Shown piece by piece: positions 105 through 43,006 of a DNA stretch of 45,797 nt (the stretch's first letter is position 1; every line of letters begins with the position of its first letter). The DNA comes from Myxococcales bacterium (GTDB lineage: Bacteria > Myxococcota > Polyangia > HGW-17 > SLPX01): positions 1 through 45,797 of the forward strand of contig SLPX01000246.1 of assembly GCA_007131745.1 (NCBI GenBank). Reading direction: 5' to 3'. Under the pieces are notes generated by a model that did not search any database, had not been told where the DNA came from, and was given only the letters and a program-made list of their open reading frames with translations. Position numbers and translations under genes: made by a program.

Positions 105-1241
105 ATGAAGAGATCTGAAATTATGCTGATTTGCGTGTCGGTCGTTGGTATTGCGCTTCTTGCGGCCGGGTGCCCGAGAGAAGAGAGAAGAACCGCTCCT
201 ACGACATCAGGGGAAGAACAACCGTTCGTGGATCCTTCCGGAGGACCCGGCGGTGATCCGCCCGGGTTGTCAAAGGGCAAGGAGCTTTTTTCCCAAAAGA
301 GTTTTACCGCAGCGTTGAGCGAGTTCGACGAGTATGTGCAGATGAATCCGGAGGATTCGCGCGGACATTATTACAGGTCCATCTGCCTGCAGGCGCTCGA
401 TCGAAACGACGAGGCTGTGAAAGCCCTTGAAAAAGCAGTGGAAAGACAACCGGATTTTCCCGAAAAACACAACAATCTTGCAGGGCTTTATATGATGCAG
501 AATGATTTTGAGGGAGGTATCCGGGTCCTCGAAACAGCGATCAAGGCGTTTCCGGCCGACGGGAGTCTCTGGTACAATCTGGGTTTGGCAAGACTGTATA
601 ACAACAGGGCAGCGTCCGCGGCACAGGCTCTTGACAAGGCGGCAGGGTCGGGTGCGACGACTCCGGGGGTTTGGCTTGCAGCCGGAATAGCTTATTTGAA
701 AGCGGGAAGCCCGGTTGATGCTTTGAATCGTTTCTTGAAAGTGCTGGAAGGCGGCAATGTGAATGCTGGAGCGGAAGAAGGGGCGGCCAAGGCGCTTTTG
801 GCCTTGAAGAGACCGAAAGAAGCGCTGAAGCATGCCGAGAAAGCAGCCGCGCTTTCACCCCAAAATCCGGCGAGGCTCTACTTGTTGGGAGTAGCACATC
901 TTGCAGCGGGAAATCATGACAGTGCACTGGAAGCTCTTGACAAGGCGGCCGAAAGATCCCCCAAGAATTCGACGATTCAAATGCGACGTGCCGAGGTGCT
1001 TTTTCTCTCAGGAAAACACAAGAACGCCTTGAAAATGATAAAAACAGCTCTGTCTTTAGTGCAGGAAGAACGAGATGAATTGCGGGGTGAAATGCAGCTT
1101 TTACTGGGTGAGATCCAGGCAGCGATGAAAAACTGCCGGAGTGCTTTAAAAGCTTTTGATAACGCGAGAAATCTTGTCGGAGGCAACCCGGAGTTATTGG
1201 AAAGACTGGAAAAAGCGGTTGGTCGTTGTCGGAAAAAATGA
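105..1241 (+). CDS. TPR-repeat lipoprotein
   Basis: This is a 378-residue predicted lipoprotein. The ATG at 105 is chosen because an AGGAG stands at 92-96 and because it puts a classic signal peptide at the very N-terminus, ending in the lipobox LAAG-C with the lipidated Cys at residue 23. A TTG further upstream (66) would add 13 residues ahead of the signal and is less likely. After a short Pro/Gly-rich linker the rest is a run of about eight tetratricopeptide-like units (for example residues with the pattern WYNLGLARLYNNRAASAAQAL and LYLLGVAHLAAGNHDSALEA). TPR proteins of this kind act as periplasmic or outer-membrane scaffolds for complexes. The downstream neighbour is an OmpA-type envelope protein on the same strand, which fits an envelope role. 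The exact partner is unknown. Confidence 0.85.
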   Translation: MKRSEIMLICVSVVGIALLAAGCPREERRTAPTTSGEEQPFVDPSGGPGGDPPGLSKGKELFSQKSFTAALSEFDEYVQMNPEDSRGHYYRSICLQALDRNDEAVKALEKAVERQPDFPEKHNNLAGLYMMQNDFEGGIRVLETAIKAFPADGSLWYNLGLARLYNNRAASAAQALDKAAGSGATTPGVWLAAGIAYLKAGSPVDALNRFLKVLEGGNVNAGAEEGAAKALLALKRPKEALKHAEKAAALSPQNPARLYLLGVAHLAAGNHDSALEALDKAAERSPKNSTIQMRRAEVLFLSGKHKNALKMIKTALSLVQEERDELRGEMQLLLGEIQAAMKNCRSALKAFDNARNLVGGNPELLERLEKAVGRCRKK

Positions 1242-4243: not shown

Positions 4244-6136
4244 CTACATCAGTTTTTCAATTTTAAAAACCCGTGAGTCGCGTTCCTTCTTCCAACCGAG
4301 AAGGGACAACGCCTTGGAGGGAAGCTCGATATGTTCGCCCGAAGCTCTTTCGGGCAGAATGCGGGCGTGAATTGATCGCAATCCTCCTGTGTACCATCTC
4401 TTGTCGGTTACAAAAAGCAGGTCCCCGGTTTTGGCGGCCAGGGTGCCGAGAGCTTTCTTCGGTAGACGGACTCCAAAACGACCGGTGTCTTCATCATACG
4501 CTTCCATGTCGAGAGTGGCGGCTTTCAGGAAAACAGGTTTGCCTTTCGCCGTGTTCAGAGTGCCGCCCTTGTACCCCTCCTGGGCTTCTTTGAGGGTACC
4601 CCAGACGAGGCCGGTCAATTCCTCTACAGGCCTGGCCTGAGTGAGGTAAGCCGTTACTATGCCGATGGTGCCGCAGATTACAAACCCGTAAAGAGCTCGA
4701 ACGAAAAAATATGATTGTAAATGCCCATCCAGCCCCGAACCTCCGGCCTTTTCGATACCAAAGGCGAAAGGAGCGAGGACGTCAGGGAAAACAACTGAAA
4801 GCGCCATGGCTGCAATGCCGAGCGTGATGGTTAGAAAAGCGGCTCTGGTTGTAAACCTTCGCCAGAAGGCTCCGAACATCAAGGCCACTGCCAGAGGTGG
4901 GGAGACCATGGCCGTAAATGCTGCATGGGCTGCGTATATGGATTGAAAACTAGCGTAAACCGGAACAATTATGACTCCGATAAACGCAGCGCCCAGGGAA
5001 ACATACCTGGCCATTCTGAGAGACTGCTTATCCGTTGCTTTCGGTTTTACGTAGACTTTCCAGATGTCGTTCACCGCAACCGCTGATGTAGCGTTGATCA
5101 GAGTGTCGGCGGTTGACATGAGAGCCGCGGTCAACGCTGCCATGATTAATCCGAACAGCCCGGGATGACAAAGAATAGAGGCTACCAGGACAAAAACCGT
5201 GTTAGGGTCGGAGTCGCTCGGGATCAAACCCCTCGCTTCCATCACTTTGCCCAGCCATCCCGCTCCCGCAACGGCGACGACCGCAATCACCTGGAGAACG
5301 ATCAAAACAGCGGTGATGGCCTTGCGTCCTTCTTTGACGCTCTTTGCAGAGAGGTATCGCATCATGATACCTTGGTTCAAGAACAGGACGAAACACCCCT
5401 GGCTCAAACCGTCTTGCCATAGGATTCCCACCATGTTGAAATCGGGTGGATGGTTTGTGTATCCCAGGGCAAGGCGATGTCGATAAGGCATGAAACCCCA
5501 GAAAACATCAATTCCTCCGATGTAATAAAGGCCAAGACCGAAGAGCAGAAATCCCGCCGCCAGAAGCAAAACTCCCTGGAGGAGATCCGTCATGATTACC
5601 GATGTCTGTCCTCCGGCGGTTACGTATATCGCCGATATGACCGCGATGACCACCACGGCCAACATGAGGTCCCAGCCCAGCATTGCGTTTAGTGCGACAC
5701 CGAGGGTGTAAAAATTAATTCCTATGTTCCCTACAAGATAGGTCAACATCAGGATGGTCGCCATCAACCTGGTCCGCCTGTCGAACCGTTTCTCGAAATA
5801 CTCGGGAATGGAGGTGATACGGCTATAGTAGATAATCGGCAACCAGCCGAACATGAACAGGGGCATCCAGTACCAGTCGTTCCAGTAAGTGTGGGTGGAA
5901 CTCATCCCGTAAGAATAAGCGACTGCCGAATACTTGATGAAACTGTAGGAGCCGACAATGGTGGCGACCATGGAAAAAGCGATGAGCCACCATGGAAAAC
6001 GTTGGCCGCTGAAAAAGAAATCTTTGGTGCTTTTTGTATAGCGACTGAATATGGCTCCGAAACCGAGGATTACAACGAAATAGCCTATGATGATGCCGTA
6101 ATCCAGTGAAGTTCCTATAATGTGGGTTCCTTGCAT
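4244..6136 (-). CDS. sodium:solute symporter (SSS family) with a C-terminal soluble domain
   Basis: The protein has 630 residues. The first 500 or so carry about 13-14 membrane helices of the SSS (LeuT-fold) type. Diagnostic stretches include FFFSGQRFPWW after the first helix, ITSIPEYFEKRFDRR, and the sodium-site helix AALMSTADTLINATSAV with its Ser-Thr-Ala-Asp. The transported solute cannot be read from sequence. The last 120 residues are hydrophilic and look like a small beta-rich domain (VRLPKKALGTLAAKTGDLLFV), an unusual addition for the family. The ATG at 6136 has AGAGGAAAC directly upstream. It belongs to a minus-strand run with the genes on both sides. A sodium gradient for it could come from the nearby NQR complex. 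Confidence 0.85.
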   Translation of the reverse strand: MQGTHIIGTSLDYGIIIGYFVVILGFGAIFSRYTKSTKDFFFSGQRFPWWLIAFSMVATIVGSYSFIKYSAVAYSYGMSSTHTYWNDWYWMPLFMFGWLPIIYYSRITSIPEYFEKRFDRRTRLMATILMLTYLVGNIGINFYTLGVALNAMLGWDLMLAVVVIAVISAIYVTAGGQTSVIMTDLLQGVLLLAAGFLLFGLGLYYIGGIDVFWGFMPYRHRLALGYTNHPPDFNMVGILWQDGLSQGCFVLFLNQGIMMRYLSAKSVKEGRKAITAVLIVLQVIAVVAVAGAGWLGKVMEARGLIPSDSDPNTVFVLVASILCHPGLFGLIMAALTAALMSTADTLINATSAVAVNDIWKVYVKPKATDKQSLRMARYVSLGAAFIGVIIVPVYASFQSIYAAHAAFTAMVSPPLAVALMFGAFWRRFTTRAAFLTITLGIAAMALSVVFPDVLAPFAFGIEKAGGSGLDGHLQSYFFVRALYGFVICGTIGIVTAYLTQARPVEELTGLVWGTLKEAQEGYKGGTLNTAKGKPVFLKAATLDMEAYDEDTGRFGVRLPKKALGTLAAKTGDLLFVTDKRWYTGGLRSIHARILPERASGEHIELPSKALSLLGWKKERDSRVFKIEKLM

Positions 6137-34326: not shown

Positions 34327-36396
34327 TCAGTCTTCAATTCCTCGCAGCAAAGTACTCTTGGATTCTTTCTTTTTTTGACGCACTTTCCTGCGCCGTCTGC
34401 GTTTTGTTCGGTTCTTCTTCTCGGTGGTTTCATCGGGTTTCATTTCCGTGTGTTCAACTTTTTGTAGTGTAACCGGAATCTTTGTATCTACAACCGGAAC
34501 CACGACGATCGGTTGAGTTACATAGCCTTCAGCTTCTACGATAATCGTTTCCGGTTTGCTTGAAACGGGCACGGTTACATTCAACGGTGAACCCTCATAT
34601 CTATTGCCCCTGAAAGAAAACACAGCAAAAGAGTCCAGGGGTGAAACCGATATTTGTATTGAGGCTGTCTTAGCCGGTTTTTGTTCCGTTTCTTCTTTGG
34701 AGTCCGCCAATACTGATTCCGAACGATCATTTTTTCGATCATCATCGGAGTTGTACTGTTCGCGGGTTGTCGTGAGAGCCGGCTTTTCTCCTGATGTTTG
34801 ATGCGAATCGGCCATTTTGAAAAAGAGAAGAAACAGAAGGATGAGGATAGGGATCCCAACGGCCGCTGCAAGGGCGATCTTCTTTTTTGTGCTCAAGCTG
34901 GCGGTATGCGCCTTGTTAAGGGAAGGTTCCGACAAGCTTGTTTCGCGGCTCCCCACGATGTCCTTAAGCGCAGCGCCGGATGCGTTTTCAATGGCTGCCT
35001 TGATTTGCCTGTCTTTGATTCGGATCCTGTCATGGAACATCCGATCCATGAGTTGTGCGGTTTTTCTAGGGTTTACCGATTCTCCATGGGCGGCCAGGAG
35101 GTTTTCCAGGTCATCCGACAAATCGCCCGCTGTTTTGTACCGTTGGGCCGGATCTTTTGCCAGGGCTTTCAATATGATGCGCTCCAATTCCGCCGGAATA
35201 CTACTTCGCAACTTTCGAGGCTTGGGTATTCTCCCTTCGGCAATTCGCCTTATGGTTGCTGCTTGTGTTTTTTCCTTGAAAAGCCGTTGCATGCATACCG
35301 ATTCAAAAAGGACTATTCCCAGGGAAAAAATATCGGATCGGCAATCCGGCTCCAAGCCTTCCGTCTGTTCGGGAGACATGTAAGCTACTTTGCCTTTCAA
35401 TACATCGTGGGCTGTATGGGTAAGTCTTTCTTTTGCATAGGCGATGCCGAAATCAACGACTTTTACATGTCCTTCGTAACTAATCAGAATGTTGTGGGGG
35501 GATACATCACGATGAACGACTTCGAGGGATTTGCCGTCGGGGCTTACGAGTTTATGAGCTGCATCCAATCCGTTGGTGGCTTGGTTGACAATCCAGGCCG
35601 CGTATGACCAGGGCAAATCGTGTTTTTGCCGCAAACATGTCTTGATCAACTCGTTGAGGCTCTCTCCGTGAACATACTCCATGGCTATAAAATAGGAGTT
35701 TTCCACTTTTCCCATGTCAAAGATGGTGGCTACGTTGGGGTGGTGGATCAAGGCGGCTATTCGGGCCTCGTCGAGAAACATTTCAACGAACTTTGTTTGG
35801 GAGGCCAGATGATCATGGATTTTTTTGATAGCGAGGAGCTTTTCGAATTTTTCCGGTCCTTTGATCCTGGCGAGATACAGGGTCGCCATGCCGCCATGCG
35901 CCATTTCCACCAGGAACTCGAACCTGCCCATTGTCCTTCTGTTTCGCACCCGGCTTTCAGCTGAATCAGCCCATTTCCCTTCTTTGTATTCCTTTGTGAT
36001 TTCTTTTTGTTCTTCCTGGTCGACGGGTGGCGGTGGGTCGGGGAGGGGGCCCGCCGGCATGTGGGATTTTTCATTCTTTTTTGCCGGTTTGGCGTTGTCT
36101 CCCGCATTAATGGGCTGCAATGTGGGAGTTCCGGTTTCCTTGCGAAGGGGAATTTTTCCGGGTTTCCTATTAACGCCCGGTTGTGTTGAGTCCTTGTGTG
36201 GACCGGATACCGGGGGAGGGGATGTTTTGACATTTCTATTTATTGAGGAAACGGCTGATTTTTTCGCGATTTTTTCCGGGGCTATAGAAGAAGGATGTCC
36301 AGTCGTACCCATCCGAATAGTCTTTGCTCTTTTCATGCGAAAACCTTCGGATCTCAAGTTCTCCGGCTTTTTGGATGGTTTGTTTTCCTTATCCAT
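34327..36396 (-). CDS. transmembrane Ser/Thr protein kinase with PEGA-like ectodomain
   Basis: The 689-residue protein has a disordered Pro/Lys-rich N-terminus (1-155), then a Hanks-type kinase domain (157-435). Lys191 in LLAIKK binds ATP, Asp297 in HRDVSPHN is the catalytic base and DFG stands at 315-317. The catalytic loop has VSP where most kinases have LKP, a variant known in myxobacterial kinases. One membrane helix at about 507-526 leads to an extracytoplasmic part with a PEGA-like beta segment (about 580-645) and a strongly basic tail (TKRRRRRKVRQKKK). All catalytic residues except the Lys of the loop are present, so activity is likely. The ATG at 36396 has AAGGCGG upstream. Confidence 0.88.
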   Translation of the reverse strand: MDKENKPSKKPENLRSEGFRMKRAKTIRMGTTGHPSSIAPEKIAKKSAVSSINRNVKTSPPPVSGPHKDSTQPGVNRKPGKIPLRKETGTPTLQPINAGDNAKPAKKNEKSHMPAGPLPDPPPPVDQEEQKEITKEYKEGKWADSAESRVRNRRTMGRFEFLVEMAHGGMATLYLARIKGPEKFEKLLAIKKIHDHLASQTKFVEMFLDEARIAALIHHPNVATIFDMGKVENSYFIAMEYVHGESLNELIKTCLRQKHDLPWSYAAWIVNQATNGLDAAHKLVSPDGKSLEVVHRDVSPHNILISYEGHVKVVDFGIAYAKERLTHTAHDVLKGKVAYMSPEQTEGLEPDCRSDIFSLGIVLFESVCMQRLFKEKTQAATIRRIAEGRIPKPRKLRSSIPAELERIILKALAKDPAQRYKTAGDLSDDLENLLAAHGESVNPRKTAQLMDRMFHDRIRIKDRQIKAAIENASGAALKDIVGSRETSLSEPSLNKAHTASLSTKKKIALAAAVGIPILILLFLLFFKMADSHQTSGEKPALTTTREQYNSDDDRKNDRSESVLADSKEETEQKPAKTASIQISVSPLDSFAVFSFRGNRYEGSPLNVTVPVSSKPETIIVEAEGYVTQPIVVVPVVDTKIPVTLQKVEHTEMKPDETTEKKNRTKRRRRRKVRQKKKESKSTLLRGIED

Positions 36397-37550: not shown

Positions 37551-37681
37551 GGATAAATGGAGCGAGGAGCGGACTTCGGCATTACGGGAGGGGTTATGGT
37601 CGTGGGTGGTGTGGATCGTATTTTAGGATAAGGAGTTTTTTCCGAAGCTTCCGTCGCTCCAATCTATACCGGAGAAAACTT

Positions 37682-39829
37682 TTGTCTCGAAAATCCAGCG
37701 CAATCGGACATGAATGGGTCGGAAAGACCGTGGCCGGAAAATACCTCGTAAAGGGAGTTTTGGGCAGCGGCGGAATGGGCGTGGTTTTACATGCGGAAAA
37801 CAATACAATCAGTCTGCCGGTTGCGATCAAATTGCTTCATGGAAATCTTGTTTCCGACGAAAGCACGGTGGAGCGTTTTAGAAGGGAAGCTCAGGCTGCG
37901 GCGGGCACAGGACATCAGCACATAGTCGAAATTTATGACATGGGTGTCACGGACGACGGTATTCCGTTTATAGTGATGGAAATGCTGGAAGGGACGACCT
38001 TGCAAAAGGTGTTGAAGCGTGAAAAGGTGATGGAGCCGACAAGGGCGGGAAGGATTTGTATACAGGTGCTTTCAGCTCTATCCGCGGTTCATGCCAAGAG
38101 TATCGTGCACAGGGACCTCAAGCCGGCGAACGTTATTCTCACAGGCCGCGGCGGAAAATATGATTTTATAAAGCTGGTGGATTTCGGGATATCCAAGTTT
38201 CGCGAAGGCGGGAAGGACGCGGGGGGCTTGACAGCCACCGGCATGGTGCTGGGTACCCCCCATTACATGAGCCCCGAGCAGGCAAGAGGCGACAAGGGAA
38301 TCGACCATCATGCAGATATTTATGCCGTGGGAGCCATGCTCTACAGGTGTGTGAGCGGAAGGGTTCCATATCCCGGAAAAAACTACAATCAAATCATCGC
38401 GCAGATACTTACCGAGTTGCCTCCCCCGGTCAGGACAGTAAATCCATCAGTGTCTGCCCCCCTCGCAGCGGTGATAGAGAAGGCGATGGCCAGGAACCCG
38501 GTGGACAGGTATGATTCCGCTGCTTCGTTTGCTGCTGATATTGCGGACATTGTTCATGTCAGCATATCCATTTCAGATTCGCACAATGTCAGGTACGAGG
38601 AAACCTCCACCGGAGCTTCCCAAATTTCCCACCCTGCGGATTCTTTGGATTCATCGGTGTTTTTGTCGGATTCATACGTTTCTTCATCGCAAAGAGGTTC
38701 CGTAAAATCCATGAGCGGCACGGAGGACACCGTTTCGGAAAGCGTCGGCGAAGGTGATGATCGTAATTCGGGGATTTCCGGAATCGATTCATCCAAGAGT
38801 TTTATCAGGGGCTGGATGGGAATAGCGGGTTCATCGATAAGGTCTTGGGTAAAGCCGGGGGGGAACCCATTGAAGGTGTGGTGCGCGGCGGCAATCATTT
38901 TTCTGGTTTTGATAGGTTTCACCCTTTACTTTGTTCGAACCACGAGGAAAGAGAAAGAAACCGTGAAAGGAGCCGGCGCGGAAGTATCGGAACAGCGGGT
39001 CCTTAGAATCGGTGTGGCGCAGTATATGCCGCCACCAAAGCGCATAGAACTTCTTGGAAATCTTGCCGAATATCTTTCGACGAAACTGAACCGAAAAGTG
39101 GAGCTGGAGGTGCCCGAAGACTTGGGAGGCTTGGCGCAATCTCTCGTAAACGGGGAGATCGACGTCTTGTACATTTCCCCGCTGATGTATGTTCAGGCCA
39201 ATGAAAAGGAGCCTGCAATTCAAGCTGTGGCCGCGGTGCGTTGGCACGCCAGCAGTTCATACCAGGGGTATATCCTTGGCAGAATTGATCGGAAGATCTT
39301 TGAACTGAAAGATCTCGCGGGAACGCGGATTTGCTGGGTTTCCAAGAATTCAACATCAGGGTATTTGCTTCCCCGTCTCATGTTGAAGCGGGAGGGTTTG
39401 GATCCCGAAGGCATGTTCTTGGAGGAGATTTTCGCTCGTGATCATGCAAAAGCGCTTAGATGGTTGGATGAAGGTCGTTGCGATGTCGCTGCCGTGTATA
39501 ACGACCTGTATCACAAGGCTTTGGAACAGGGTGTGTTGAAATCAAACATGCGAATCCTTTCCGCCACCGGTCCCATTCCCCAGGACGCGGTCGCCGTGAG
39601 TCCCAAGATGACGCCGGATTTGAAGAAGCGATTTATGGAAGCGCTTTTGGAATATGACGGCGATGCCTATTTGTCGAGACATGGAGGAGATGAAGAAGAC
39701 GGTATTACAAGGGTCAGCTCGTTTATGAGAGTGGATGATTCCCACTATGACTTGGTCAGGGACGCAATGAAGAAGGGTGTAGGGAATGAGGGTGGAGTAG
39801 AGGCTGTGGATGAATCCAACGTGGAATAA
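37682..39829 (+). CDS. Ser/Thr protein kinase fused to an extracytoplasmic PhnD-like binding domain
   Basis: The 715-residue protein has a cytoplasmic kinase domain (20-290) with Gly-rich loop LGSGGMG at 27-33, Lys50, HRDLKPAN with Asp145, DFG at 167-169 and GTPHYMSPEQ at 191-200, so it should be active. A Ser-rich linker (about 300-390) leads to one membrane helix (398-418). Residues about 438-695 match the PhnD/phosphonate-binding-like periplasmic domain: LRIGVAQYMPP, GEIDVLYISPLMYV, TRICWVSKNSTSGYLLPRLM, CDVAAVYNDLY and TGPIPQDAVAVSPKM. I infer a one-protein receptor that binds a small anion-type ligand outside and controls phosphorylation inside. It starts with TTG at 37682 behind GGAG; no ATG fits. 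Confidence 0.88.
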   Translation: MSRKSSAIGHEWVGKTVAGKYLVKGVLGSGGMGVVLHAENNTISLPVAIKLLHGNLVSDESTVERFRREAQAAAGTGHQHIVEIYDMGVTDDGIPFIVMEMLEGTTLQKVLKREKVMEPTRAGRICIQVLSALSAVHAKSIVHRDLKPANVILTGRGGKYDFIKLVDFGISKFREGGKDAGGLTATGMVLGTPHYMSPEQARGDKGIDHHADIYAVGAMLYRCVSGRVPYPGKNYNQIIAQILTELPPPVRTVNPSVSAPLAAVIEKAMARNPVDRYDSAASFAADIADIVHVSISISDSHNVRYEETSTGASQISHPADSLDSSVFLSDSYVSSSQRGSVKSMSGTEDTVSESVGEGDDRNSGISGIDSSKSFIRGWMGIAGSSIRSWVKPGGNPLKVWCAAAIIFLVLIGFTLYFVRTTRKEKETVKGAGAEVSEQRVLRIGVAQYMPPPKRIELLGNLAEYLSTKLNRKVELEVPEDLGGLAQSLVNGEIDVLYISPLMYVQANEKEPAIQAVAAVRWHASSSYQGYILGRIDRKIFELKDLAGTRICWVSKNSTSGYLLPRLMLKREGLDPEGMFLEEIFARDHAKALRWLDEGRCDVAAVYNDLYHKALEQGVLKSNMRILSATGPIPQDAVAVSPKMTPDLKKRFMEALLEYDGDAYLSRHGGDEEDGITRVSSFMRVDDSHYDLVRDAMKKGVGNEGGVEAVDESNVE

Positions 39830-39892
39830 TCATGCAAGCCCTCAATGTGAAAAATCCTTCATGAACCCGAATCGTTGAAGAGCATTTCCCTC

Positions 39893-39921
39893 TTGCCATC
39901 GACTTCGGCTGTTGATAGAAG
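39893..39921 (+). promoter_or_regulatory. candidate promoter of the Rrf2-type regulator
   Basis: TTGCCA (39893-39898) and TAGAAG (39916-39921) are 17 bases apart, matching sigma-70 boxes in five and four of six positions. Transcription would start near 39928, about 70 bases before the regulator gene. It is the best match in the 171-base gap. Confidence 0.35.
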
Positions 39922-39956
39922 GCACGGAATCGTCTTTGCCGTGAGGAGATTTCATC

Positions 39957-40016
39957 ATGTCCGAGGATAGCGAAAGAAAGAATAAGAAAGGGGCTGTTCT
40001 ATGTCTATGGAAATGA
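39957..40016 (+). CDS. possible 19-residue frame overlapping the rrf2-type start
   Basis: An ATG at 39957 follows GAGGAG at 39943-39948 and opens a frame MSEDSERKNKKGAVLCLWK that ends in TGA at 40014-40016, 13 bases after the regulator's start codon and in a different frame. It could couple or limit translation of the regulator. No conservation data are available to me, and it may be chance. Confidence 0.25.
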   Translation: MSEDSERKNKKGAVLCLWK

Positions 40017-40423
40017 CGCGAGCTGCCGACTACGGGCTGCGGGCCATGGTCTACCTGAGCAGAAGGATAAACGAAGGAAGTGTTTTCATAGGTGATATTG
40101 CAGACGCTATGCAGATACCGGCGCAGTTTTTACATAAAGTCATGCCGAGGCTGGTGAAGGCAGGTTTTATTCACTCCCGCAGGGGAGCGGGTGGTGGGTA
40201 CAAAATGGCTAAACCGCTCGATCAAATAAACATTTTGGAGATTATTGAAGCAATTGACGGGCCGATTCTCATCAACAGATGCATGTCCGGCGCTTCTGAT
40301 TGCGGAAGAATAGGAAAGTGTTCGGTTGAAGTAATATGTAAGCTGGCTCAAAAGGCTGTCACCGACAAGTTCAGGGAGTTTTCCCTTGCGGATGTAGTGA
40401 GAATGGAAGATGATTGCGAATGA
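40001..40423 (+). CDS. Rrf2-family transcriptional regulator with Cys ligands
   Basis: The 140-residue protein has the winged helix-turn-helix of the Rrf2/IscR family: TRAADYGLRAMVYLS at the start, QIPAQFLHKVMPRLVKAGFI as recognition region and RRGAGGGYKMAKP as the wing. Cys94, Cys101 and Cys107 (C-x6-C-x5-C, with another at 113) are placed like the iron-sulfur ligands of IscR and NsrR, so sensing of iron-sulfur status, oxygen or nitric oxide is likely. Its targets are unknown; no isc or suf genes are near. The ATG at 40001 has AAAGGGG upstream. Its stop lies nine bases from that of the opposite permease gene. Confidence 0.85.
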   Translation: MSMEMTRAADYGLRAMVYLSRRINEGSVFIGDIADAMQIPAQFLHKVMPRLVKAGFIHSRRGAGGGYKMAKPLDQINILEIIEAIDGPILINRCMSGASDCGRIGKCSVEVICKLAQKAVTDKFREFSLADVVRMEDDCE

Positions 40424-40432
40424 TTTCAGAAT

Positions 40433-42313
40433 CTATTCGTACCTGAGACCCTCCACCGGATGAAATGATGATGCCTTGTGCGATGGGTAGAGCGTGGCAA
40501 GAAAGCAGAGAATCAATCCAGCGACCAGTACTGTCAGCATTTCCCCCCAATGGACAACAACCGGAAGACGGCTTATGAGATAAACTTTGGGGTCGAGCGG
40601 AAAGTTCAGCCCTGACAGAAAACGGCAGTTCAGAATTCCGAGCCCGACACCGCATCCTACACCCACCATTCCGACCATAACTCCGGCAAGCTGAAAAACC
40701 CTGGAAACACCGGATGCGCCGGCGCCCATTGCTTTCAAAACAGCGATTTCCCTTGTCTTGTTGATAACCATCATGCTAAGCGCAGCCAGGATGCCGAATC
40801 CCGCTACAAGAACCATGATAAAAGCTATCAGTGTCATGATCAGTTTCTGGGTGCGAAGCGCTTCGAAAAGCGGCCTATTGAGTTGGTCCCAGGTGATGAT
40901 CCTGTAGTCGCCCATGTCTGAAATTTTTCGTTCTATCGCGGATGCCACCCAACCGGCTTTATAAACGTTGTCGAGCCTTATTTCTACGCCGAGTACGGCA
41001 TTGTCTTCGCCCGGCAAGGCGTGTGGATTGACGAATCGCTGAGCCGCGTTCAAGTGAACAAACGCCATTTTTTGGTCGTATTCCTCGAAGCCGCAATAGA
41101 AAGTGGATGCAACTCTGAAATCCCTTGCAAGTGGCGGTGGCAGTCGCTCGTCATGGTTTCTTTCCTCAAACTGGCTGTATTCGGCGGTAGGCGACATTAG
41201 GCGGACTACATCGCCCCGTTCGACCCTTAGAGTTCTTGCCAGATCCCTTCCAAGTATGATGCCGGGTAACTCGCATCCTTCAATGATGCCGGGAATCGGA
41301 TCTCCGTCTTCGGTGAATTCCCGGCATTCGTCTTTTCTGCCTGGACCAACCAGCCCCTTGTCAAGATGCTCACCCATTTGCTTCATTATTGTATCCAGTT
41401 CTTTCTTTGAATCCGCCTGGACATAGGTGGTGAGATCCAGTACCTCCTCGACCCGTGCGGGGTCCACTCCTTTCATCAATACTGTTGTATGTCTTTTTTC
41501 ATGGGTGATGATCATTTCAGCGATTGTAAACGGCGCCGCTCCGGTCACGTGAGGGATTGATCGGATCTTGTTTATCACATCCGGATACTCGGTGAATCCG
41601 TACGTGTTCTTCATGATCAAAACATGGGCGTTGAAACCAAGCACCTTGTCCTGGAATTCTTGGCCGAACCCCCTGGTGACCGCTCTGACCATAACGAGAG
41701 AAGCTGCTCCCAGGATAACACCGGTTATGGAAATGGTCGTAAAAACCGAAAAGAAGCAGGCCAGGAAAAAAACAACTGCCAGCAGGGAACTTCCGGCCAC
41801 CATGAAAGCCCCCACATACTGAATGGAAAACTCGGAAACACTCCAATCAACGAACAGGACGGCCAACCCGGCGGCTGCAAGGCCGGACATTCTCTTTACC
41901 CATGTTGAAAACCTGTTTTCCTGCGGATTCATGTGCCAAATTGCTTGAGCAGCAACGACAGGGATAATTCCGATCAGGTAAAACCCCCATGAATACCATC
42001 GGCCCGCCAAGATCGACACCAGTAGAAGAAGCTGAAACGTTCCCACGGTTTGGCAAACCGACGAAAGCGAATCGGCCATGGCGCCGTCCCGGTCAATATC
42101 TTGCTTGCGCCGGAGCTTGATCCCTCCGGCAACCAATGCGACGAACCAAACAGGAACAGCGCTCCACAGGAGAGCAGCGACCGGTTTTGGAGTATAATAA
42201 AACAACAAGGTTCCAACGAGAGCCTGGACCAAGCACACGAAAAGCCAGGCCAAGATCTTGGGCTGCAAACGGGGATGGAACAGGTATTTCCAGGCTACAA
42301 GGGTTTCGAACAT
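40433..42313 (-). CDS. LolC/E-like ABC permease with an N-terminal membrane insertion
   Basis: The 626-residue protein carries the FtsX/MacB-type permease plan: helix at about 188-212 (FFSVFTTISITGVILGAAS), a large periplasmic domain (about 213-490) and three C-terminal helices with VAGFGILAALSMMVINKTREIAVLKAMGA at about 492-520, the coupling stretch typical of LolC and LolE. These normally have about 400 residues and begin directly with a short lead before helix 1. Here the lead (FETLVAWKYLFHPR) is followed by about 165 extra residues with several hydrophobic helices before the first canonical helix. The ATPase partner (LolD-like) is not in the window. It lies downstream of a small lipoprotein gene on the same strand, which may be a substrate or partner. 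Confidence 0.8.
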   Translation of the reverse strand: MFETLVAWKYLFHPRLQPKILAWLFVCLVQALVGTLLFYYTPKPVAALLWSAVPVWFVALVAGGIKLRRKQDIDRDGAMADSLSSVCQTVGTFQLLLLVSILAGRWYSWGFYLIGIIPVVAAQAIWHMNPQENRFSTWVKRMSGLAAAGLAVLFVDWSVSEFSIQYVGAFMVAGSSLLAVVFFLACFFSVFTTISITGVILGAASLVMVRAVTRGFGQEFQDKVLGFNAHVLIMKNTYGFTEYPDVINKIRSIPHVTGAAPFTIAEMIITHEKRHTTVLMKGVDPARVEEVLDLTTYVQADSKKELDTIMKQMGEHLDKGLVGPGRKDECREFTEDGDPIPGIIEGCELPGIILGRDLARTLRVERGDVVRLMSPTAEYSQFEERNHDERLPPPLARDFRVASTFYCGFEEYDQKMAFVHLNAAQRFVNPHALPGEDNAVLGVEIRLDNVYKAGWVASAIERKISDMGDYRIITWDQLNRPLFEALRTQKLIMTLIAFIMVLVAGFGILAALSMMVINKTREIAVLKAMGAGASGVSRVFQLAGVMVGMVGVGCGVGLGILNCRFLSGLNFPLDPKVYLISRLPVVVHWGEMLTVLVAGLILCFLATLYPSHKASSFHPVEGLRYE

Positions 42314-42370
42314 TTATCCGTTTATCTCCGGTGTTCGCTCCGTCAATCTAATGCATGTTTCGAAAAGCCG

Positions 42371-43006
42371 TCATTTTAACATCCACGCATCAGGTTCAAG
42401 AGCTTTCTCATCGTTGGGGGGGAACGCGGACACACGAATCCAGCGGATTTTTGATGGATCAATGGTGTGGGAAAAGTGAATGTTGCCGTCTACACGAAAA
42501 CTGCGTCTACCTTTTGTTCCTTCGAAAACCTTTTTTGTTTCCGTCTCGACTTTTGCCGGGGTGAAACGGTTTCCTTCCGAATCCCAGAGTTCCCAACGCC
42601 AGGATTCAAGTTCTAAAATGGGGTCTTCACCATGAAAGGTCAGTGGACGATCGATCGCATCAAGCCTGACCCGGAAACTGGTCTTCCCCTTAAGGAAGCT
42701 TTCAGTCCATTCATCGATCGCGGATTTCAGCCGTTCCTCGGTCCAGCTTTTTCGGGCGGCCCTTCTTTTTAAGAAACTTTCTATGAAAGCCCTGTCCCAC
42801 AGGGTCAGCGAAAGATGCAGATTGGATCTGCCCACACCCCTGTTAAATATCCGGGTGATCGCTTCCGGACTTTTTCCGGAAAGTTCCGGATTAACCCGAT
42901 CGTACTGCGACACCGGCACCTTGGGTGCGGAGCATGCTCCTGCGAAAGCCATGGCAGCGGCTAATGTCGTCATAACGATAAAATCCTTGCGATCGAAAAA
43001 TTCCAT
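42371..43006 (-). CDS. putative lipoprotein
   Basis: The 211-residue product has a signal peptide ending in the lipobox AGA-C25 and a mature part with many aromatic and charged residues (LESWRWELWDSEGNRF, RRSFRVDGNIHFSH). I do not recognise a family. The pattern of strands near the end (IRWIRVSAFPPNDEKAL) suggests a beta-rich domain. The ATG at 43006 has GGGATTA about seven bases upstream. It is 57 bases upstream of the LolC/E-like permease on the same strand, so the two are probably one transcription unit. Confidence 0.7.
   Translation of the reverse strand: MEFFDRKDFIVMTTLAAAMAFAGACSAPKVPVSQYDRVNPELSGKSPEAITRIFNRGVGRSNLHLSLTLWDRAFIESFLKRRAARKSWTEERLKSAIDEWTESFLKGKTSFRVRLDAIDRPLTFHGEDPILELESWRWELWDSEGNRFTPAKVETETKKVFEGTKGRRSFRVDGNIHFSHTIDPSKIRWIRVSAFPPNDEKALEPDAWMLK

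Follow-up and report, generated by a model that had tools for sequence, protein, structure and literature searches.

Positions 37682 to 39829 (+) of the window, the 45,797-nucleotide stretch of DNA analyzed here, hold an open frame of 715 codons without interruption, which was read from its Pfam matches as a receptor Ser/Thr kinase with a PhnD-like outer domain. A likely ribosome-binding site, GGAG (37671 to 37674, +; matched by eye), is located 7 nt upstream of a TTG start, so that the 715-residue version of the protein fits better than the recorded version of 699 residues (P0002). The N-terminal part is a complete Hanks-type kinase domain (residues 23-277; 37748 to 38512, +; Pkinase profile positions 3-252 of 263, E 1.1e-46). 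Its catalytic residues K50, H143-R144-D145, N150 and D167-F168-G169 were invariant in an alignment of four fusions including the window protein, so the intact kinase domain noted from the letters alone (Lys50, Asp145, DFG 167-169) is confirmed. The protein fell below the cut-off of the Stk1/PknB PASTA equivalog model NF033483 (293.4 bits versus 450). A Pfam scan of it gave no PASTA repeats, and the HisKA and HATPase_c domains of TtrS-type histidine kinases were absent from its Pfam matches.

The kinase domain is followed by a juxtamembrane linker (about residues 291-396; 38552 to 38869, +), which is mostly disordered in the AlphaFold2 model, where the blocks between residues 301 and 390 have pLDDT values of 25 to 41. 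A single membrane helix had been placed at residues 398-418 (38873 to 38935, +), in line with both the most hydrophobic 19-residue window (400-418, mean 2.44) and a helix at 396-420 in the model. Lysine and arginine residues flanking the helix averaged 3.4 before and 1.8 after it across the family, with more before than after in 33 of 55 proteins, fewer in 9 and equal numbers in 13; the window protein itself, with 3 before and 5 after (counted by eye), runs contrary to this mean. None of the 55 has a further hydrophobic stretch in its linker. These counts agree with a topology in which the kinase would lie inside and the sensor outside.

The outer part (residues 444-689; 39011 to 39748, +) matched Phosphonate-bd (PF12974) over profile positions 2-242 of 242 with an E-value of 5.1e-50 (170.5 bits versus a cut-off of 27), and had sequence and fold matches to PtxB, HtxB and ArrX. 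The sequence-only reading had placed both domains in one frame, and the Pfam search found them there. Among the NCBIfam models, the outer part passed TIGR01098 (131.4 bits versus 112.05) and remained below the cut-off of PhnD proper (105.7 versus 261.1). The AlphaFold2 model had pLDDT values of 75 to 94 in every 10-residue block from 461 to 660, and Foldseek matched it to PknB (E 1.6e-24) and to PtxB with methylphosphonate (5lq1; E 3.3e-22, TMt 0.81). The fold assignment of the outer domain rests on Foldseek, as the VIA-align rows lay mainly over the kinase; the PtxB match speaks against another fold. The sensor binding proteins ArrX and AioX were among the best PDB profile matches. The domain had been called complete; its fold is indeed whole, while its pocket is not wholly canonical (L481, see below). 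An artefact in which a sequencing error joins two genes was ruled out, since independent relatives share the order kinase, helix, PhnD-like domain.

Relatives were collected from proteins and from genomes. The first protein search (4354 candidates) returned three other fusions, and the second one fusion more (P0006) together with two binding proteins lacking a kinase. The third (7994 candidates) gave nothing new; both later searches scored only those candidates that shared most words (7996 and 7994). No relative was found in the viral contigs searched. Among genome contigs, 50 pattern matches led to a single locus (L001), from a Deltaproteobacteria MAG (G001) labelled Myxococcota from NCBI names. 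In genome searches confined to one phylum, and counting non-kinase proteins as well, PF12974 was matched in 4 of 13 genomes of the order centred on G001 (E ≤ 1e-10) and in 164 of 289 genomes of the class (E ≤ 1e-20), and the fused-domain profile in 135 of 377 genomes of the phylum (E ≤ 1e-30). Mainly long frames were fetched for the class-wide matches, so that this sample favours fusions.

Altogether, at least 53 distinct membrane fusions of kinase and PhnD-like domain were identified, 48 from loci in at least 40 genomes of the one phylum and five, the window's among them, from the protein database; nine fusions without a helix were also read. The window receptor is therefore one of a large family in myxobacteria and related bacteria. 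The impression of a near-unique architecture given by the first protein search was thus ruled out by the genome searches, which found the plan to be common in the phylum, and most members had been missed by the protein search. The membrane form is patchy (2 of 13 genomes in the nearest order), and some genomes hold several receptors, with at least five in G022. Rows with identical core stretches were collapsed, and some near-copies remain in these counts. The helix threshold was loose (1.2): L023 and L056 had weak scores (1.26 and 1.62) and were counted as membrane forms, and L070 passed and was placed in the helix-less set. L065 and L111 were unmatched by the HRD pattern and were assigned to the kinases by hand. 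HRD and DFG were present in 52 of 52 membrane fusions, of which 51 also had the VxK lysine motif; the 53rd, L111, has HRDMTPHN and DFG.

Other arrangements of the domain were seen as well. Several hydrophobic stretches follow the PhnD-like domain in L020, L022, L024-L026, L028, L031 and L033-L035, and the two of these that were scanned with Pfam (L020 and L024) carry a BPD_transp_1 permease in the same chain. In L007, a 663-residue frame on the minus strand has propeller-like repeats (by eye), followed by a diverged PhnD-like domain.

The binding pocket was compared with solved relatives. The ligand contacts of Ps_PtxB given in PMC5700983 are S124, T125, S126 and H155, plus Y49 and Y94; the cap is Tyr208 in Te_PtxB and Asp205 in E. 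coli PhnD (same source). Alignments gave S557, T558, S559, H588, Y527 and D635 as the equivalents in the window protein, with L481 at the position of Y49. The STS-H oxyanion motif is therefore present: S557-T558-S559 (39350 to 39358, +) forms the STS motif for anion binding, with S557 kept in 53 of 53 membrane fusions, and H588 (39443 to 39445, +) is its histidine, kept in 52. The cap position is held by D635 (39584 to 39586, +), again in 53 of 53, where the PtxB phosphite group has its capping Tyr (Y208 of Te_PtxB). A phosphite or hypophosphite sensor was rejected, as this Tyr is missing and the His, a Phe in HtxB, is kept. A general Tyr/Asp swap of a cap pair Y448/D635 was also dropped, since residue 448 is Tyr in only 16 of 53 members. 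The pocket varies at other positions, including T558 and Y527; residue 527, at the hinge, is Tyr in 28 of 53 receptors and Ser in 23. Residue 481 (39122 to 39124, +) is Tyr in 45 of 53 members and L, V, P, P and L in the five-member subclade of the window protein. Having lost the lobe-1 Tyr, this subclade may bind a different ligand, and L481 together with Ser at 527 in 23 of 53 suggests that ligands probably vary across the family. As predicted from these residues, the pocket is likely an oxyanion site with an altered wall.

The same variation could be read differently, with the outer domain serving as a docking or pairing module that binds no small ligand, the kinase then reporting protein contact or the state of the envelope. 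The replacement of the lobe-1 Tyr in the window's subclade, and by A and H in two pseudokinase receptors described below, would suit such a role, as would the variable T558 and Y527. The conservation of S557 and D635 in every receptor and of H588 in all but one is, however, more than a scaffold needs, and we consider this reading unlikely.

Of the 20 window ORFs scanned, none was a PhnC or PhnE, the partners expected beside the substrate-binding protein of an ABC transporter, which upholds the earlier remark that no transporter genes lie nearby. An FtsX/MacB-type permease at 40433-42313 is not of the PhnC/PhnE kind. The receptor could still sense phosphonate or phosphate for a PhnCE-like transporter encoded elsewhere in the genome. 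TIGR01098, a model of binding proteins of phosphate, phosphite and phosphonate transporters, is passed, and PtxB and HtxB are among the closest solved relatives. Such an uptake co-receptor is nevertheless improbable, given that PhnE scored above its cut-off in one of 16 genomes with relatives and that the receptor was the only PF12974 protein found in G190, G204 and G049, assemblies in both counts being possibly incomplete. Both PF12974 proteins of G013 and of G046 were likewise such receptors, one of those in G013 with a kinase relic.

Downstream of the receptor kinase lies an Rrf2-type regulator (40001 to 40423, +; PF02082, E 7.3e-35) with three spaced cysteines (by eye), which is 60% identical over 136 residues to its counterpart in L001 (7105-7512). 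Window 39829-43006 and L001 6888-10126 share the order receptor kinase, Rrf2 regulator (60%), FtsX-like permease (54%) and lipoprotein-like gene on the opposite strand (47%). As a fixed partner the Rrf2 regulator was rejected: it adjoins the receptor in these two loci, and no match was found in 15 kb around the receptor of G013. The latter receptor kinase is flanked by two sodium/solute-symporter-like genes (by eye; L077, 5727-7655 and 10078-11913); in the window an SSF gene (Pfam) is located at 4244-6136, far from the receptor kinase.

A pair of cysteines, C551 (39332 to 39334, +) and C600 (39479 to 39481, +), was present in all 53 membrane receptors in the family table, at positions adjoining the STS loop and following the His helix. 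Neither was found in the nine helix-less fusions or in 55 other kinase-less rows. Four kinase-less rows also have the pair; three of them (L029, L090 and L108) run off the contig end, and the fourth, L115, begins after an in-frame stop codon located 10 nt into its contig and could be either a truncated fusion or a genuine exception. A pair on the presumed periplasmic side and none on the presumed cytosolic side is what would be expected of a putative disulfide. As the pattern stems from one gain in a single clade, it does not amount to many independent tests. That the two cysteines instead serve as a site for a metal, metalloid or thiol-reactive signal, with redox or arsenic being sensed rather than an oxyanion alone, would fit their strict conservation, the kinship to AioX and ArrX and the cysteines of the Rrf2 regulator in the window and L001, but is very improbable, as Cys106 of the AioX pocket (PMC5908839) would by spacing correspond to S499 here, the family pair lies elsewhere, and no Rrf2 match was found in 15 kb around the G013 receptor.

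In a maximum-likelihood tree of 114 domains, from which four long-branch rows and the four kinase-less rows with the Cys pair were left out, the 53 membrane receptor sensors and two pseudokinase sensors formed one clade (support 100/99), which was joined by its 18 nearest non-kinase proteins with support of 98/88. A lipobox-like pattern was seen in 14 of 17 inspected proteins of this sister group. The GG[DE]EF motif occurred in 17 of 18 sister loci versus 1 of 34 other loci, in a comparison where the sister loci are longer (median 5801 versus 3726 bases) and thus had a greater chance of showing it. The motif was found in none of the 48 membrane-receptor loci, none of the nine helix-less kinase loci (median 5857 bases) and one of the two pseudokinase loci (L005). 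Pfam gave HAMP plus GGDEF in 7 of 10 scanned neighbours of sister proteins; the neighbour at L117 was a hybrid histidine kinase, and at L113 and L114 a protein of another kind had been picked. In five of the seven sister-cyclase pairs, the predicted reading frames share 4 to 11 bases. The kinase-less rows of L103-L131 are lipoprotein-like PhnD proteins, often with such a few-base overlap with HAMP-GGDEF cyclase genes, and are possibly a family of c-di-GMP sensors.

Since its nearest kin are lipoprotein-like and mostly encoded beside diguanylate cyclase genes, the sensor domain was probably a signalling protein before it was fused to the kinase. The lineage appears to have had a diguanylate cyclase, a histidine kinase or, through fusion, a Ser/Thr kinase as its output. 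The proposal that a PhnD fold had become the sensor of a Hanks-type kinase thus holds in that this domain forms the external portion of a Ser/Thr receptor kinase made of one protein; the single receptor clade and its nearest kin argue against an isolated conversion of a transport protein.

The helix-less kinase sensors formed a separate clade (99/95) with six kinase-less binding proteins whose domain is not preceded by a hydrophobic stretch. The fusions concerned are L006 / L080, L057, L062, L064-L067, L069 and L070, and their kin without a kinase or signal-like stretch are L071-L076; together these may represent a branch that senses anions in the cytosol.

The kinase domains of the membrane receptors were of two types in a kinase tree (L101 was excluded as truncated), and that of the window receptor is PknB-like. 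A second Ser/Thr kinase, with a kinase domain and no PhnD domain in Pfam, is located one predicted gene away (34327-36396, -). It grouped with the kinases of P0005-type receptors, with an unsure placement because the branch was flagged as long; such a grouping would point to an exchange of the kinase partner or to the sensor having been lost.

Two genomes, G001 and G013, each encode two such proteins, the catalytic receptor and another that has the sensor, both cysteines and an N-terminal kinase relic lacking HRD and DFG. Pfam gave no kinase match for the relic of G001 (P0010) and 27.2 bits for that of G013 (cut-off 31.7); the helix scores of the two pseudokinases were 1.75 and 2.57. Their loci (L078 3201-11479 and L079 8451-16821) are alike in five genes, which include an adenosine deaminase and an FHA-domain protein. 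The conserved locus also holds, besides the pseudokinase-PhnD receptor, a lipoprotein-like gene and, about 5 kb on, an ordinary kinase, which is complete in G001 (Pkinase E 7.3e-46) and represented in G013 by a tblastn match near the contig end. FHA domains read phosphothreonine, which makes a kinase relay at this locus plausible in the two genomes, and the conserved company of an FHA protein and another kinase suggests teams of kinase and pseudokinase. A bolder and rather less likely reading is a family of bacterial flytrap receptor kinases that would have arisen from a sensor lipoprotein of a c-di-GMP pathway and a kinase, in which the sensor would have been coupled to two kinase types and catalytic and pseudokinase receptors with sister sensors would team up, as in some animal receptor kinases.

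Accounting for the window gene itself, we hypothesize, with a probability of roughly 0.7, a one-protein receptor in which oxyanion sensing by a periplasmic PhnD-like domain drives a cytoplasmic kinase. The N-terminal Hanks kinase would be cytoplasmic, the single helix would cross the inner membrane, and the PhnD-like domain would be periplasmic, where a C551-C600 disulfide may stiffen the second lobe. A small oxyanion whose central atom carries three oxygens (a phosphonate, a phosphate ester or a comparable oxyanion of sulfur) would sit between the lobes, held by the STS-H motif, and Asp635 would lie close to the cap. Lobe closure would then alter the pairing of receptors such that the kinase domains trans-phosphorylate their activation loops, upon which cytoplasmic targets would be phosphorylated. 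The sensor would descend from a lipoprotein-type signalling lineage and not directly from a transport protein.

Several known systems resemble this receptor in part. Separate binding proteins are known to act on Ser/Thr kinases and other receptors (PMC9602780). In GlnH-GlnX-PknG of Corynebacterium and Mycobacterium, a periplasmic binding protein likewise controls a Ser/Thr kinase (PMC9769921), but through three proteins, an amino-acid ligand and a cytoplasmic kinase, instead of one polypeptide with a PhnD-type sensor. The histidine kinases TtrS and ThsS also carry a PF12974-type sensor domain (PMC5408782); unlike in the window receptor, it precedes the kinase, and the output is HisKA/HATPase with a response regulator. 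AioX and ArrX are PhnD-like proteins used for sensing and not for transport (PMC5908839), but are separate proteins working with a histidine kinase, and AioX has the pocket Cys106. The outer part of PknB/PASTA kinases and of other receptor Ser/Thr kinases such as PknS is PASTA or TPR, in contrast to the bilobed binding protein here. Also in myxobacteria, SpoIIE-like phosphatases of Sorangium combine a binding-protein domain with a phosphorylation enzyme (PMC2887360), although the output is a phosphatase and the binding domain comes from a different family (pfam00532). In invertebrates, Venus kinase receptors have a flytrap domain, one helix and a kinase in one chain (PMC2680970); these are animal tyrosine kinases with another flytrap family, and the likeness is functional, with no kinship claimed.

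A Ser/Thr kinase fused to PF12974 was not named in the literature matches listed, nor was the kinase-helix-PhnD plan in the available portions of a kinase classification (PMC2877116), the myxobacterial phosphatome (PMC2887360) or a Planctomycetota kinase survey (PMC11032199). The architecture may well be recorded in public databases. Streptomyces proteins annotated as a kinase plus an ABC-transporter binding protein in one chain probably belong to another binding-protein family. The window gene encodes a real receptor kinase on a plan known in outline, for which we found the sensor type, the diagnostic Cys pair and the origin not described.

To our knowledge, a small-molecule ligand is known for few of the receptor Ser/Thr kinases of bacteria. 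As the fold has many homologues with well-solved pocket chemistry, a defined ligand could be linked to a Hanks kinase within one protein. The kin encoded beside cyclase genes in turn raise the question of how a single lineage of sensors was put to use for c-di-GMP signalling in some proteins and for protein phosphorylation in others.
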